Part shown: positions 51,546 through 61,655 of the stretch, one piece after another
Numbering within the stretch: the stretch's first letter is position 1
Layout: every line of letters starts with the position of its first letter
Origin: Bacteroidota bacterium
Lineage (GTDB): Bacteria > Bacteroidota > Bacteroidia > B-17B0 > Aurantibacillaceae
Assembly: GCA_030692515.1 (NCBI GenBank)
Contig: JAUXZS010000020.1
Coordinates: forward strand, 620,001-684,000
Direction: 5' to 3'
Length of the DNA stretch: 64,000 nt
Notes under the pieces: generated by a model
What the model was told of the DNA's origin: nothing
The model's database searches: none
Seen by the model: the letters and a program-made list of their open reading frames with translations, nothing else
Position numbers and translations under genes: made by a program

Positions 51546-52943
51546 TTAATATCCTAAAATCTTAAGCATGCTTTTATAACTCTGCTCTTTTGCAAAAAGA
51601 CGAGTTGAAAATTTTCCATCTTCATCTCTATCAATTAAAACATGTTTTGGCGCGGGAATTAAACAATGCTGCGTTCCACCATAACCGCTCAAAGCCTCTT
51701 GGTAGGCGCCAGTATGAAAGAATCCAATGTACTGCGGCTGCTTTTGATTTTTATCGATTTTAGGTAAAAAAACCTGATTGGTATGAGCTTCTGTATTATA
51801 ATAATCCATACTATCACAAGTCATTCCCCCAAGATTAACCGGCCCATAAGGCTTTTCCCAGTTATTAATAGCCAATAAAATAAAACGCTGATTAATACCC
51901 CAGGTGTCAGGAAGCGTGGTAATAAAACTGCTATCTATGAAGTACCAGGTTTCACGGTCGTTTTGTTGCTTTTGATCAACAACCGAAAATAATGTTGCGC
52001 CACTTTCTCCAACTGTATATGAACCAAATTCTGTAAAAATATTTGGTTCAGGAATATCGTTTTGATTACAAAAAGATTTTATTTGCGCCACAATTTCTTC
52101 AATCATGTATTCGTAATCGTACTCAAAGCTAAGAGATGTGCGAATTGGTAATCCTCCACCAATATTCAAAGAATCTAAAGTGGGGCAAATCTCCCTTAAT
52201 TCTTTATAAATCATTAAACATTTGTTTAATTCTGTCCAATAATAAATGGTGTCTTTTATTCCGGTATTAATGAAAAAATGTAAAAGTTTTAAACTGAATT
52301 TTGGATTTGTTTTTATTTTCTCCTTATATAAATTCATTATTTCGCTGCTGCGAATACCTAAACGAGACGTGTAAAATAAAAAAGAAGGTTCTTCTTCGGT
52401 ACTAATTCTTATTCCAAGATTTACATTATCAACCTTACAATGTTTTTTATAATATTCAATCTCATCTAAGTGGTCTAAAACCGGAATAACATTAAATCCT
52501 TCATTAATCAACTCGGTAATGTTTTGCTTATAGTTTTGACGCTTATAACCGTTACAAATAATATATGTATCTTTGTTTAATGCTTTTTTTTGAAATTGCT
52601 CTTTGATAATATTTAAATCAAATGCCGACGAAGTCTCTATATGAACCTCGTTTTTAAGAACCTCATCGAGTACAAAACTAAAATGAGAGCTTTTAGTGCA
52701 ATAACAATAAACGTATTTGCCTTTATAATCTACTTTTGCCATTGCAACGTTAAATAATCGCTTGGCTTTTTGTATTTGCGAGCTGATTTTAGGCAAATAA
52801 CTTATACGCAAAGGTGTTCCGTATTGCTTTATAATATCCATTAAATGGATGTCATTAAAGTATAATTCATCATCTTTTACTTCAAATCCCTCTTGAGGAA
52901 AGTTAAAAGTTTGGTTAATTAGTGTCGAATACTGGTTATTCAT
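51546..52943 (-). CDS. speA: Arginine decarboxylase (fold type III, Bacteroidota type)
   Basis: 465 residues. Decarboxylates arginine to agmatine, the first step of polyamine synthesis by the agmatine route. The alanine-racemase-like barrel has the PLP lysine in YCYCTKSSHF, the glycine-rich phosphate loop LNIGGGLPIRTS and the C-terminal substrate/dimer cysteine in GGMTCDSMD. Much shorter than proteobacterial SpeA (about 630-660), as usual for this phylum. It diverges from an arginase-family gene with a 97-base spacer holding a -7 box (TATTTTTG) and two palindromes placed in its leader. Related diaminopimelate decarboxylases are an alternative, but the sequence follows the Bacteroidota arginine decarboxylases. 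Confidence 0.88.
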   Translation of the reverse strand: MNNQYSTLINQTFNFPQEGFEVKDDELYFNDIHLMDIIKQYGTPLRISYLPKISSQIQKAKRLFNVAMAKVDYKGKYVYCYCTKSSHFSFVLDEVLKNEVHIETSSAFDLNIIKEQFQKKALNKDTYIICNGYKRQNYKQNITELINEGFNVIPVLDHLDEIEYYKKHCKVDNVNLGIRISTEEEPSFLFYTSRLGIRSSEIMNLYKEKIKTNPKFSLKLLHFFINTGIKDTIYYWTELNKCLMIYKELREICPTLDSLNIGGGLPIRTSLSFEYDYEYMIEEIVAQIKSFCNQNDIPEPNIFTEFGSYTVGESGATLFSVVDQKQQNDRETWYFIDSSFITTLPDTWGINQRFILLAINNWEKPYGPVNLGGMTCDSMDYYNTEAHTNQVFLPKIDKNQKQPQYIGFFHTGAYQEALSGYGGTQHCLIPAPKHVLIDRDEDGKFSTRLFAKEQSYKSMLKILGY

Positions 52944-52947
52944 TTTA

Positions 52948-52999
52948 AATGTAAGTTAGTTACTTGTTTAAATATTTATTAAAGTAAGTTGTTTACTTT
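52948..52999. promoter_or_regulatory. Two tandem operator-like palindromes in the decarboxylase leader
   Basis: The stronger site is AAAGTAA-GTTGT-TTACTTT (52981-52999), a perfect 7-base inverted repeat with a 5-base spacer. The weaker site AATGTAA-GTTAG-TTACTTG (52948-52966) keeps the GTAA...TTAC core. Their centres are 33 bases apart, close to three helical turns. They lie between the predicted -7 box and the decarboxylase ATG, a position suited to repression. The regulator is unknown. Confidence 0.55.
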
Positions 53000-53002
53000 C
53001 TA

Positions 53003-53010
53003 CAAAAATA
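53003..53010 (-). promoter_or_regulatory. -7 promoter element of arginine decarboxylase
   Basis: Reads TATTTTTG on the minus strand, matching TAnnTTTG, about 60 bases ahead of the ATG, and sits just upstream of the stronger palindrome. No clear -33 TTTG. Confidence 0.45.
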
Positions 53011-53040: not shown

Positions 53041-53994
53041 ATGATAAAACCTATTAAAATTATTGAAGTTAAGAGTGAAATTGGTGCAGGAACTCGTGGT
53101 TCTAGTATGGGAGTCGATGCTATAAAAATTGCCGCTTTAGATTTTGGTAGCGCCTTTTTTAAGCGTTATAAGTCTGTAGAAATACCTAATGAGAACAACC
53201 TATTGCTTGAGCCCGTTGTACATGATTATGCAAAACGCATCAAAGGAGTGTTTAATTTAAACGACCGCATTAGCAAAGAAATTCAAAAAACGTTAAAGGC
53301 CGATCAGGTTCCTATTGTCCTAGCCGGCGACCATAGTTCTGCTTTAGGTACAATAAGTGGAATAAGAATGGCTTATCCAGATAAGCGCCTTGGCGTAATT
53401 TGGATTGATGCCCATGCCGACCTTCACACTCCTTATACTACACCAAGTGGTAATATGCATGGCATGCCGCTTGCTTGTGTTTTAAATGAAGATAATCGTG
53501 ATAGACAACAAAATAAACCTGATGATGAAACGGTCGAATATTGGGAAAAATTAAAGAATTTAGGTGGAATTTGTCCTAAAATTAAATATTCTGACCTTGT
53601 TTTTATTGCTTTACGCGATTTTGAGCCTCAAGAAGACTATTTGATTAAAAAGAATAAGATAAGAGTTTTTAATCTGCAAGAAATTAGAAAAAAAGCCGTT
53701 GAACGTGTTGCAATTGAGTCTTTAAACTATCTAGACCATTGTGATATTATATATGTAAGTTTTGATGTAGATAGTATGGATTCAAGAATTTCGAGCGGAA
53801 CGGGCACTCCAGTTCCTAACGGAATTACTGAAAAGGAAGCCGGAAACCTTATTTATTACATTATGCGTAGTAAAAAAATTGTTTGCTTCGAAATGGTTGA
53901 AATAAATCCCACTTTAGATCGAGAAAATTTAATGGCAGAAAATGCTTTTGAGATTCTACAAAAAACAACCAATCAATTAAGTAACGATTTTTAA
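53041..53994 (+). CDS. Arginase family protein (ureohydrolase)
   Basis: 317 residues. Manganese-binding motifs are complete: VLAGDHSSALG (His), WIDAHADLHTP (Asp-His-Asp) and SFDVDSMD (Asp-Asp). The start EVKSEIGAGTRGSSMGVDAI and the loop TPSGNMHGMPLA match arginases in this phylum, which release ornithine and urea; agmatinase activity on the product of the divergent decarboxylase cannot be excluded from sequence alone. Length is normal. It shares the short control region with arginine decarboxylase. Confidence 0.9.
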   Translation: MIKPIKIIEVKSEIGAGTRGSSMGVDAIKIAALDFGSAFFKRYKSVEIPNENNLLLEPVVHDYAKRIKGVFNLNDRISKEIQKTLKADQVPIVLAGDHSSALGTISGIRMAYPDKRLGVIWIDAHADLHTPYTTPSGNMHGMPLACVLNEDNRDRQQNKPDDETVEYWEKLKNLGGICPKIKYSDLVFIALRDFEPQEDYLIKKNKIRVFNLQEIRKKAVERVAIESLNYLDHCDIIYVSFDVDSMDSRISSGTGTPVPNGITEKEAGNLIYYIMRSKKIVCFEMVEINPTLDRENLMAENAFEILQKTTNQLSNDF

Positions 53995-54005
53995 TTACAA
54001 AACTA

Positions 54006-54097
54006 TTAGCCACAGATTTCGCAAATAACACAGATTATTTTTTAAAGCAAAAACAAATCTTTAAACAATCTGATAAATCGGTGAAATTAGCGGCTTA
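54006..54097. repeat. Intergenic imperfect inverted repeat (copy 2 of the TTAGCCAC family)
   Basis: The left part TTAGCCACAGATTTCGCAAA is homologous to the copy near 24.7 kb. The right part, read in reverse complement, begins TAAGCCGCTAATTTCACCGA, so the whole is an imperfect palindrome with about 30-base arms. It lies between convergent genes and overlaps the stop of the serine hydrolase; it may act as a bidirectional terminator. Confidence 0.6.
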
Positions 54098-55396
54098 ATT
54101 AATAATTATCTTTTTTACAAAGCTTGTATTAGCTAACGAAGTAATCGTTATAAAATACAGGCCTTTTTGTAATTGAGAAATATCTAATTTATCATTATTC
54201 AACTTTACATCAAAAGTTTGCCCAAGACAATTTGTTATTAATACCGATTTAATTTGAATGTCAGATTTAATAGTAATAATATCTTTAACCGGATTTGGAT
54301 AAATATTAATTTTTTGATTCAAATCTAACTCGTTAATTGAGTTACTAGTACAATTTAATTTGTTAATATAATCCCATAAAACATTATCAAAACCAGAAGC
54401 GGCCAAATTAAAACCACCTGCTGTATTTCCCTGCCTGATTACTACAAGGTTTTGACTTGGCACAACATAAATTTTTTGATCATTTTTACCTAATGCCGCA
54501 AACATATCTGAAGGAGCATTAGACATTAGAGTTCCTGGAAACACTATTTGTAAGCTTGGCGACATAAAACTTACTTTCCCATTAAGCCACCATAAATAAC
54601 CATAAGAATAATTTAAATTTTGCGATGAATTTACCATTTGTTTAAAATAAACTGAATCTTTCATTATAGTATCTGTATTCCAAATTCCTTTATTTAAATT
54701 TAATAAACCAAAGCGGGCCATGTCTCTGGCTTTGCTATAGTAAACATTTTGATACCAGAGGCCACTCATTCCAATTTTAGACTTTACCCAATTAGTTGTA
54801 ATTGTGTTATAAGGTAAAGCAGCAGCTGCAGAAACAACATCATGAGTTTTAATATATACCCCTGTATGATAAGCCCATCTCGTTCCAGCATCAACTTGAT
54901 ATAATAGACAAGCTTTAGCGGTATCTTCATTATCGCAAGGTAATGGCGGCCCATCATTTAAACCACTCGTCATTTGCAATAAATTTTTTACGGTAATTAA
55001 ATTTTCTTTTTGCAGAGGGGCGCTTGTCCATCCAGTACCAATGTATTGAGATACTTTAGTATTAATATTAATTAAACCTTTTTGTTGAGCAATACCTGTA
55101 ATAAATCCCGCTAAACTTTTACCTGCAGAGGCCCAATACCAAGAAGAATCTGAAGTAAAAGTTCCAAAATATTTTTCTAAAACTATTTTGCCGTTTTTTA
55201 AAATAATAAACGATTTTGTGTTTTTTGCCTGAAGATAATTGTAAAGAGAATCAATTCTTGGCTGGCACCAATTAAGACTTTGAGGGGAAATAGTATCCCA
55301 AGCTGACCCAACTAAAGGAGGAAAATAAAGCGATTGTGATTGTATTAAAAAAGTGTTTAATACAAAACACAAAAATAAAATATAAATTTTTTTCAT
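54095..55396 (-). CDS. Secreted serine hydrolase (class C beta-lactamase fold) with T9SS type A tag
   Basis: 433 residues. A signal peptide (YILFLCFVLNTFLIQSQ) is followed by a beta-lactamase/PBP-like domain (about 45-350). The nucleophile motif is SxxK in WASAGKSLAGF; the second motif is probably YHT (RWAYHTGVYI) in place of YxN. Residues about 360-433 are a T9SS sorting tag (INIYPNPVKDIITIKSD, GLYFITI...KKIIIN). It should be a surface or secreted esterase, peptidase or amidase; resistance to beta-lactams is not implied. Transcribed alone. Confidence 0.9.
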   Translation of the reverse strand: MKKIYILFLCFVLNTFLIQSQSLYFPPLVGSAWDTISPQSLNWCQPRIDSLYNYLQAKNTKSFIILKNGKIVLEKYFGTFTSDSSWYWASAGKSLAGFITGIAQQKGLININTKVSQYIGTGWTSAPLQKENLITVKNLLQMTSGLNDGPPLPCDNEDTAKACLLYQVDAGTRWAYHTGVYIKTHDVVSAAAALPYNTITTNWVKSKIGMSGLWYQNVYYSKARDMARFGLLNLNKGIWNTDTIMKDSVYFKQMVNSSQNLNYSYGYLWWLNGKVSFMSPSLQIVFPGTLMSNAPSDMFAALGKNDQKIYVVPSQNLVVIRQGNTAGGFNLAASGFDNVLWDYINKLNCTSNSINELDLNQKINIYPNPVKDIITIKSDIQIKSVLITNCLGQTFDVKLNNDKLDISQLQKGLYFITITSLANTSFVKKIIIN

Positions 55397-58518: not shown

Positions 58519-59166
58519 GTGGATATAAGAGCAGTTCAATATCAAAGAAATTCGGAAATATTAAAAAAATATTTACCTGAAGAAACCGTTGAACTAATTT
58601 CTGAATGGATAATAGACTACGACTTTAAATTAAAAATCACTAAAGAAAGAAAAACGCGCTTAGGAGATTACACCTCTCCGCGTGATGGATTAAATCATAC
58701 CATTACCATAAACTACAATCTTAATAAATACGCTTTTTTAATTACTTTGGTGCATGAGATAGCACATTTGGTTACGTTTAACGAACACAAAAACAGAGTA
58801 AATCCTCATGGTTTAGAGTGGAAACAAAATTTTCAAAAAATGATGCAACCCTTTTTAACTCCAGATATTTTTCCTTTAGAAATTTTTGCAGCTTTACGAA
58901 AGTATCTCCAAAACCCAGCTGCTTCTAGCTGCAGCGACATTCAATTATTAAGAACACTTAAACTTCATGATGCAGATAGCGACACCATTTTTTTAGAGCA
59001 TTTACCACTTAATACCTTGTTTTTATACAACGGCTCTCGCATCTTTAAAAAAGGCGAAAGAATTAGAAAAAGATTTAAGTGTGTGGAAATAAAAAGTAAC
59101 GTAGTTTACTTATTTAATCCTTTAACTGAAGTCGAAATTTTTGACTCTAACGCTCAATTAGTTTAG
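58519..59166 (+). CDS. SprT-like domain protein (predicted zinc metalloprotease)
   Basis: 215 residues. The zinc motif HEIAH occurs in FLITLVHEIAHLVTFNEH with a downstream HGLEWKQNF as third-ligand region, as in SprT/Spartan-like proteins. Family roles include degrading DNA-protein crosslinks in eukaryotes; bacterial roles are unclear. The start is GTG because an in-frame TGA stands directly in front of it and no early ATG exists. The C-terminal part (RIRKRFKCVEIKSNVVYLFN) is a small beta domain. Its end overlaps the convergent LacI gene by 20 bases. Confidence 0.88.
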   Translation: MDIRAVQYQRNSEILKKYLPEETVELISEWIIDYDFKLKITKERKTRLGDYTSPRDGLNHTITINYNLNKYAFLITLVHEIAHLVTFNEHKNRVNPHGLEWKQNFQKMMQPFLTPDIFPLEIFAALRKYLQNPAASSCSDIQLLRTLKLHDADSDTIFLEHLPLNTLFLYNGSRIFKKGERIRKRFKCVEIKSNVVYLFNPLTEVEIFDSNAQLV

Positions 59167-60157
59167 TTGAAAGTACAATATTAGATTTATTAGTTTGTTT
59201 GCCATCCATAATATCTAAAATTAAAAAAGAAGCGTTTTTACCAATTTCCTCAACCGGTTGTGATACTGAAATGACCGGCTTATCAATAATATTAAATAAT
59301 TCTACGTCATCAAAACAAGCAATTTTTATTTTAATGAACTTGTCAGCAAATTGTTTTTTCTTAATGATTTTTAGAAGTGTAGTTGCTATATTATTATTCA
59401 AAGCAAAAACAGCATCCAAATCAGGTTGCGTTTTCAAAAGCTCTACCAAAGCATTTTCAACATCACGTTCAACATTTTCAAAATTAATTGGCTTAAGTAA
59501 AGATGGGTCAAATTTTAATTTATTTTTAGATAAAGCATCTTTATATCCATTTACACGATCTTCTATTGTACTGATGTAAGAAGGCGTAATAGAAAAACAA
59601 GCAATTTTTGTACAGCCCTTATTAATTAAATGATTGGTTATTTCGAATGCGCCCCCGTAATTATCTATTACAACATAATTGGTATTAAATAAAGGCAAAA
59701 CACGATCGATAAATACAATTGGCAGAGATGTGTAACGCGGTTGATCGTAAAAAGAAGAATCCTTAAAAGTGGAAGCAATAATCAAACCATCAACACCTTG
59801 CTGATTAATCATCATTTCAACTAAACGTTTTTCTTTTTCTTCATTCTCATCGGTACTACACACCATTAAATTGTAGTTTTTTTCAAACAAAACGCCTTCA
59901 ATGTTTTTTGCTATTTTAGAATAAAATGGATTGGCAATATCGGCAACTATTAATCCAATAAAATTACTTTTACCAGTGCGCAATGCCTTTGCAAATTTAT
60001 TTGGAGTATAGTCTAGTTTTGCTACCGCTTCTAAAACTTCGGCTTGCGTTTTTTTACTAATACCATACTGATTACCTTTTCCATTTAAAACCATCGAAAT
60101 AAGAGTTTTTGAAAACCCTAATTGCTTCGATAAATCTTCTAACTGCAATCTTTTCAT
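59147..60157 (-). CDS. LacI-type transcriptional regulator
   Basis: 336 residues. The helix-turn-helix RLQLEDLSKQLGFSKTLISMVLNGK and hinge (ALRTGKSNFIGLIVADIANPFYS) are followed by a periplasmic-binding-like sensor domain (about 60-335). It would bind a palindromic operator and respond to a sugar-like or other small ligand. No sugar-utilisation genes are next to it; the divergent neighbour is an aminotransferase, 241 bases away, which could be a target. A -7 box (TAGATTTG) lies about 58 bases upstream. Confidence 0.94.
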   Translation of the reverse strand: MKRLQLEDLSKQLGFSKTLISMVLNGKGNQYGISKKTQAEVLEAVAKLDYTPNKFAKALRTGKSNFIGLIVADIANPFYSKIAKNIEGVLFEKNYNLMVCSTDENEEKEKRLVEMMINQQGVDGLIIASTFKDSSFYDQPRYTSLPIVFIDRVLPLFNTNYVVIDNYGGAFEITNHLINKGCTKIACFSITPSYISTIEDRVNGYKDALSKNKLKFDPSLLKPINFENVERDVENALVELLKTQPDLDAVFALNNNIATTLLKIIKKKQFADKFIKIKIACFDDVELFNIIDKPVISVSQPVEEIGKNASFLILDIMDGKQTNKSNIVLSTKLIER

Positions 60158-60398: not shown

Positions 60399-61655
60399 AT
60401 GAAGGTTTCTAAGTTAGCAGAGAACATAATTGGTTCTGAAATAATAAAATTAGCCGCAGAGGTTAACGAAAAAATAAAACAAGGCGAAAAGATATACAAT
60501 TTCACGATTGGTGATTTTAACCCAAATGAATTTCCCATTCCTGAAGAATTAAAACAGTTTATAATTGCCGAATACATTGCAAACCAAACAAACTACCCTG
60601 CAGCGGATGGTATGCTTGAGTTACGCACTGCTGTTAGTAGCTTGCTAAAACAACGTGGCGCCATAGATTATAAACCCGATGAAATTTTAATAGCAGGCGG
60701 GGCCAGACCTGTAATTTATAGTATTTTTAAAGCTTTGGTTGACCCAGGAGACACTGTCATTTTTGCCGTTCCTTCTTGGAATAACAATCATTACACCTAC
60801 TTAAATGGTGCAATTCCTGTTATTATTGAAGCATCGCCAGAACAAAACTTCATGCCTCAGGCAAAAGACATTAAACCTTACATTTCAAAAGCAACTCTTG
60901 TTGCCTTATGTTCGCCTCAAAATCCAACGGGTACCGTATTTACAAAAGAAGGCTTAGAGCAAATATGCGATATGATTCTTGAAGAAAATAAAAAACGCGA
61001 CCCTTCGCAAAAGCCTGTGTACTTAATGTATGACCAAATTTATTGGGCCCTAACTTTTGGCGATGTTAAACATTACAATCCGGTAAGCTTAAGACCCGAA
61101 ATGAAAAACTATACTGTTTTTGTAGATGGAATTTCTAAATCTCTTGCAGCAACCGGCGTGCGTGTTGGATGGAGTATGGGACCAAAATTTATTATTGATA
61201 AAATGCGTGCTATTTTAACGCATGTTGGTGCATGGGCGCCAAAAGCAGAACAATTAGCTACTGCAAAATATTTAACTGACTTAAATAAATACGATTCTTT
61301 TATCGAAGTTCAAAAAGAAAAAATTAATGCACGCTTAACTGGTTTTTACAATGGCTTTCAATCTCTTAAAGCCGCTGGTTACAAAGTGGATGCTATTACA
61401 CCGCAAGCTGCAATTTATTTAACCGTTCAATTTAATTTGCACGGACAAAAAACAGCCGACGGCAATGTGTTGGCTACAACAAAAGATATTACAAAATATT
61501 TATTGGATGAAGCTAAATTAGCTATTGTACCTTTTTCTGCATTTGGCGCCTCGGTAGATTCTAGTTGGTATCGCCTATCGGTTGGCACATGTAAATTAGA
61601 AGATGTTGATGGCGTAATTGCAAATTTAAAAACTGCGCTGAGTAAGCTATCATAA
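60399..61655 (+). CDS. Class I/II PLP-dependent aminotransferase
   Basis: 418 residues. Fold type I enzyme with the substrate/PLP motifs NYPAADGMLELRTAV, CSPQNPTGTVF, YLMYDQIYWAL and the Schiff-base lysine in VDGISKSLAATGVRVGW; Arg in the C-terminal WYRLSVGTC binds the substrate carboxylate. Related to aspartate or aromatic aminotransferases of the subgroup I-gamma type; the true amino donor cannot be told. Single gene with its own strong promoter, divergent from a LacI-type regulator. Confidence 0.92.
   Translation: MKVSKLAENIIGSEIIKLAAEVNEKIKQGEKIYNFTIGDFNPNEFPIPEELKQFIIAEYIANQTNYPAADGMLELRTAVSSLLKQRGAIDYKPDEILIAGGARPVIYSIFKALVDPGDTVIFAVPSWNNNHYTYLNGAIPVIIEASPEQNFMPQAKDIKPYISKATLVALCSPQNPTGTVFTKEGLEQICDMILEENKKRDPSQKPVYLMYDQIYWALTFGDVKHYNPVSLRPEMKNYTVFVDGISKSLAATGVRVGWSMGPKFIIDKMRAILTHVGAWAPKAEQLATAKYLTDLNKYDSFIEVQKEKINARLTGFYNGFQSLKAAGYKVDAITPQAAIYLTVQFNLHGQKTADGNVLATTKDITKYLLDEAKLAIVPFSAFGASVDSSWYRLSVGTCKLEDVDGVIANLKTALSKLS

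Follow-up and report, generated by a model that had tools for sequence, protein, structure and literature searches.

A putative helically phased double operator at the arginine decarboxylase promoter of Bacteroidia

Our analysis revealed two palindromic sites, a fixed distance apart, in the leader of an arginine decarboxylase-like gene in a 64-kb stretch of Bacteroidota DNA (the window: the whole stretch that was analyzed). The best explanation for the pair, and one that we consider highly probable, is that a dedicated repressor of arginine decarboxylase acts through it as a helically phased double operator.

Two palindromes in the decarboxylase leader

The promoter-proximal palindrome (site 1, Table 1) reads AAAGTAAGTTGTTTACTTT on the plus strand and is a perfect 7+5+7 inverted repeat; it is the only place in the 64-kb window that matches AAAGTAAN5TTACTTT with 0 mismatches. 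The plus-strand letters of site 2 are AATGTAAGTTAGTTACTTG, in which the GTAA-N5-TTAC core is present. The centers of the two sites are 33 bp apart, which corresponds to about three helical turns. Site 2 ends 4 bases before the decarboxylase ATG, which is located at 52943 on the minus strand. Since the -7 box match lies at 53010-53003, both sites are located between this box and the ATG. The first-pass annotation of this DNA had described the perfect repeat, a second copy of the core with its center 33 bases away, and the position of both between a -7 box and the start codon; the coordinates bear out all of these.

Table 1. Coordinates of the features discussed, as positions of the window
Feature	Position	Strand	Remark
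Putative operator site 1, promoter-proximal	52981..52999	-	AAAGTAAACAACTTACTTT in decarboxylase orientation
Putative operator site 2	52948..52966	-	CAAGTAACTAACTTACATT in decarboxylase orientation
-7 box match TATTTTTG	53003..53010 (minus strand, 53010-53003)	-	fits Bacteroidota TAnnTTTG; decarboxylase promoter
Arginine decarboxylase-like gene	51546..52943	-	465 aa, short SpeA type; gene followed by the putative operator
Arginase-family gene, divergent	53041..53994	+	common spacer with decarboxylase
LacI-family regulator	59147-60157	-	Peripla_BP_1; LacI HTH just below cut-off

The best NCBIfam matches of the decarboxylase were PRK05354 and TIGR01273 (speA), both under the curated cut-offs, and its substrate is therefore assigned from the family. 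Its Pfam match was Orn_Arg_deC_N, and its best PDB match was 3n2o, a biosynthetic arginine decarboxylase. The divergent gene scored 231.7 bits with TIGR01229 (rocF; cut-off 227.6) and 77 bits with the agmatinase model (cut-off 174.3). Thus, the neighbor of the decarboxylase scores as an arginase and not as an agmatinase; agmatine, the decarboxylase product, would have to be processed by an agmatinase or via the deiminase route. Outside the window genus, several genomes that bear the operator carry, after the arginase gene, a gene that reads as arginyl-tRNA synthetase-like. Elsewhere in the window, the minus strand at 54095-55396 encodes a protein with a beta-lactamase fold and, at its C-terminus, a Por secretion (type IX) sorting domain.

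A symmetric 19-bp matrix fitted to decarboxylase leaders yielded the consensus AAWSYRASTNASTYRSWTT, a 9-1-9 palindrome with the half-site consensus AAWSYRAST. The half-sites take two main forms, AAAGTAA/AATGTAA and AATCCGA/AATCTAA, which occur in free combination. Single sites were not enriched: a loose pattern with up to 3 mismatches gave 30 matches in the 64-kb window against 30.1 expected, which is chance level, and the single-site consensus gave 72 matches in the whole genome against 66 for the reversed control, which is no excess. In contrast to the single palindromes, the pair was sharply distinguished. With a matrix derived from 30 distant loci only, site 2 was the best and site 1 the second-best match of the 64 kb, and the pair scored 34.1 bits in the window, where the next best place scored 15.0. 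The whole-genome pair model gave 43.5 bits at the decarboxylase leader, 25.9 bits at the same leader on the other strand, and 19.1 bits at the next place. The significance of the element rests with the pair and its recurrence in relatives, not with the single palindromes.

Conservation of the pair, its spacing and its target

Conservation in orthologous spacers, on which the first-pass annotation had staked its reading, was tested with decarboxylase orthologues from 80 loci of other species, together with whole genomes, and the pair proved to be conserved. At a site threshold of 8 bits, and with the spacing restricted to 31-36 for this count, both sites reached at least 8 bits in 62/80 leaders. 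These comprised 38 of the 39 nearer loci and 24 of the 41 more distant loci, which are mostly from Bacteroidales; one clear site or none was present in the other 17 of the 41. The spacing was 33 in 44 of the 62 leaders and 34 in 18. When the matrix trained on the nearer loci was applied to 45 distant loci with the spacing free from 19 to 79, a spacing of 33 was found in 26 and a spacing of 34 in 5 of the 38 loci that scored above 12 bits. The best of 1600 dinucleotide shuffles was surpassed at 64 of the 80 loci, on which this matrix had itself been trained. Within the genus, identity was 0.75 and 0.76 in the columns of the two sites, 0.35-0.43 in the spacer and 0.52 upstream.

These data bear on the idea that the palindromes arose by chance in AT-rich DNA. 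The counts of single sites do match expectation in both window and genome, as this idea would have it; however, divergent lineages keep the pair, its spacing and its position, the pair is restricted to the decarboxylase gene, and the cross-lineage test with the nearer-trained matrix on distant loci rules chance out, so that we regard its probability as negligible.

Carriers of the pair are the window's genus, several further families of the class and the majority of the sampled Bacteroidales. It was absent, with shuffle-like scores and scattered spacings, from sampled genomes with a decarboxylase at most about 64% identical, other lineages of the phylum included. Two genomes with a decarboxylase 64% identical had one good site (G047) and a weak pair (G052, C2:125025-125067), respectively. 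Where the decarboxylase is more diverged, as in Flavobacteriaceae-like lineages and others, the pair was also absent, and therefore it does not accompany the enzyme in general.

Strong pair-model matches fetched from 60 relatives and from 33 operator-bearing genomes were all located directly upstream of the decarboxylase. The other pair-model matches inspected were ordinary or at chance level, many of them inside coding frames, and had no common target. The pair occurs once per genome searched, at the decarboxylase; further targets among arginine or polyamine genes, which the first-pass annotation had proposed to look for, were not found. The same annotation had assigned the element to the spacer shared with the arginase-family gene. 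This part of its operator reading did not stand, since the element is kept in loci without a divergent arginase gene and thus belongs to the decarboxylase; the part that did stand is a conserved pair of fixed phase on the decarboxylase promoter.

Position of the pair relative to the promoter

The -7 box consensus of Bacteroidota is TAnnTTTG, which was taken as -12 to -5 (PMC9723704), and the transcription start was placed from the position of this box. Relative to site 1, a TAnnTTTG box starts at -11/-10 in 18 loci of the genus, at +13 in 13 other loci, where it overlaps the right arm, and at -21/-20 in 12 loci. Site 2 is located 33 or 34 bp downstream of site 1. Accordingly, site 1 of the window genus would span about -1 to +18, and site 2 of the window about +33 to +51, in the same predicted start coordinates. 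In the second group, site 1 would lie at -25 to -7, with its right arm itself forming the -7 box, and in the third group at about +9 to +27. Across these three common arrangements the element shifts relative to the -7 box, yet it overlaps or closely follows it, and the overall geometry appears to be that of a repressor.

The same pair might instead be the operator of an activator, or of a factor with a dual effect, rather than of a pure repressor. The weak pair of G052 apparently precedes a TATTTTTG box instead of following it, and this placement could suit an activator. However, the three common arrangements overlap or follow the -7 box, which is the typical place of a repressor site, and none of them places the pair at -40 to -70. 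We consider an activator or dual-effect factor unlikely.

The palindromes could also act as RNA, either as two small leader hairpins controlling translation or the stability of the transcript, or as a riboswitch-like element. Both sites are probably transcribed in the window genus, and site 1 is able to form a 7-bp hairpin. In contrast, the leader folded no better than shuffled sequences (z -0.67), and an Rfam scan of the leader gave no match. Mirrored mismatches showed no preference for G-U over A-C (23 vs 42 at the nearer loci, 53 vs 42 at the distant loci), and the left and right half-sites did not co-vary (5.84 vs 5.89 when shuffled). Furthermore, the -7 box lies inside site 1 in the 13 loci of the second group, where site 1 would not be transcribed, and an RNA mechanism is therefore unlikely. 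Taking these observations together, we regard it as very improbable.

We favor a DNA operator for a repressor. Most likely, both 19-bp palindromes are bound from one face of the double-stranded DNA by a dimeric transcription factor. The bound factor, as a tetramer or a cooperative pair, would cover the -7 box and the start site and thereby block initiation or early elongation at the decarboxylase. Derepression would tune the synthesis of agmatine and polyamines to need. We infer protein binding, repression over activation, and cooperativity, and the ligand may be arginine, agmatine or a polyamine.

Candidate binding proteins

The first-pass annotation had stated that the palindrome was not an ArgR box that it knew, and the distribution of ArgR agrees with this: a PF01316 homologue was found in 0/60 genomes, the window's own included, and the same search was positive in 9/14 control genomes. 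Lrp operators contain phased multiple sites, and HxlR operators contain GTAA...TTAC-like palindromes; however, neither Lrp/AsnC (PF01037) nor HxlR (PF01638) proteins are encoded in the window genome. Among 30 tested genomes, 16 lacked an AsnC_trans_reg protein, several of them operator-bearing. GntR (PF00392) was likewise not found in the window genome, and it exceeded the cut-off in 2/30 genomes. By their absence, ArgR, Lrp/AsnC, HxlR and GntR proteins were rejected as binders.

Gene neighborhoods gave no candidate. There was no recurrent transcription factor within 3 kb of the decarboxylase at 80 loci and no recurrent regulator within about 10 kb of it in 20 operator-bearing genomes. The LacI-family gene of the window (Table 1) was rejected as the regulator, as only close relatives have it in the vicinity of the decarboxylase. 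This gene is divergent from an aminotransferase gene at 60399.

The binder may be the single, universal Fur-family protein, which would place the decarboxylase under metal or redox control. Fur boxes are 19-bp 9-1-9 palindromes that often overlap the core promoter, and the present element resembles them in this symmetry and in its core-promoter overlap. The window genome encodes exactly one Fur homologue, and in G039 the Fur gene follows immediately downstream of the decarboxylase, in the same orientation. However, this adjacency was seen only in G039 among the loci searched, and Fur is equally present in operator-lacking genomes, with at least one copy in 30/30. A Fur motif would be expected at several metal or iron genes, whereas the pair model found the decarboxylase leader only; this holds for the paired form, single sites being indistinguishable from chance. 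The present element also differs from Fur boxes in its one target per genome and its consensus, with no link to iron genes seen. Therefore, we consider control by Fur improbable. In many genomes, the single Fur-family gene is clustered with genes that read as a STAS-like (anti-sigma antagonist-like) protein and an adenylosuccinate synthase-like protein, often with a RelA/SpoT-like gene upstream.

Discussion

The double operator proposed here has an architecture of a known kind. The NrdR boxes of E. coli nrdHIEF have a 15-bp spacer (PMC12051234); the spacer of the present pair is 14 or 15 bp. As in that system, the two palindromes of the decarboxylase leader are an integer number of helical turns apart (33 or 34 bp, about three turns), and the target operons are few. 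In contrast, the targets of NrdR are ribonucleotide reductase operons, whereas the target here is arginine decarboxylase. The NrdR box consensus is of the ACACWATATATWGTGT type, and it differs from AAWSYRASTNASTYRSWTT in both sequence and length. Most likely, the present element acts like an NrdR-box arrangement, though it is not an NrdR box. ARG boxes come in pairs in arginine-gene promoters; each is a palindrome of about 18 bp, and the two are about 21 bp apart, center to center. The present palindromes share with them the pairing, a similar size and the location at an arginine-gene promoter; however, they are 33 or 34 bp apart and have a different consensus. In the open-access literature, we found nothing on this operator or on the transcriptional control of arginine decarboxylase in Bacteroidia, and both the element and its factor appear to be undescribed in the searchable literature.

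A single-target factor that is not encoded nearby and is kept across a class is unusual. We tentatively suggest, as a reading with somewhat less than an even chance of being right, that a factor of this kind, shared by Bacteroidales and related Bacteroidia, is encoded at a distance from its target, belongs to none of the usual families of arginine or polyamine regulators, and controls the entry into polyamine synthesis via a double operator with a constant internal phase and a place on the promoter that shifts between lineages.

A one-target operator that is sharply defined and phylogenetically deep is a ready bait for its regulator, and this work shows that ArgR is not that regulator in the lineage of the window. 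Both in the gut and in the environment, Bacteroidia make up a major part of the microbiota, and the polyamines they produce are of importance to hosts.
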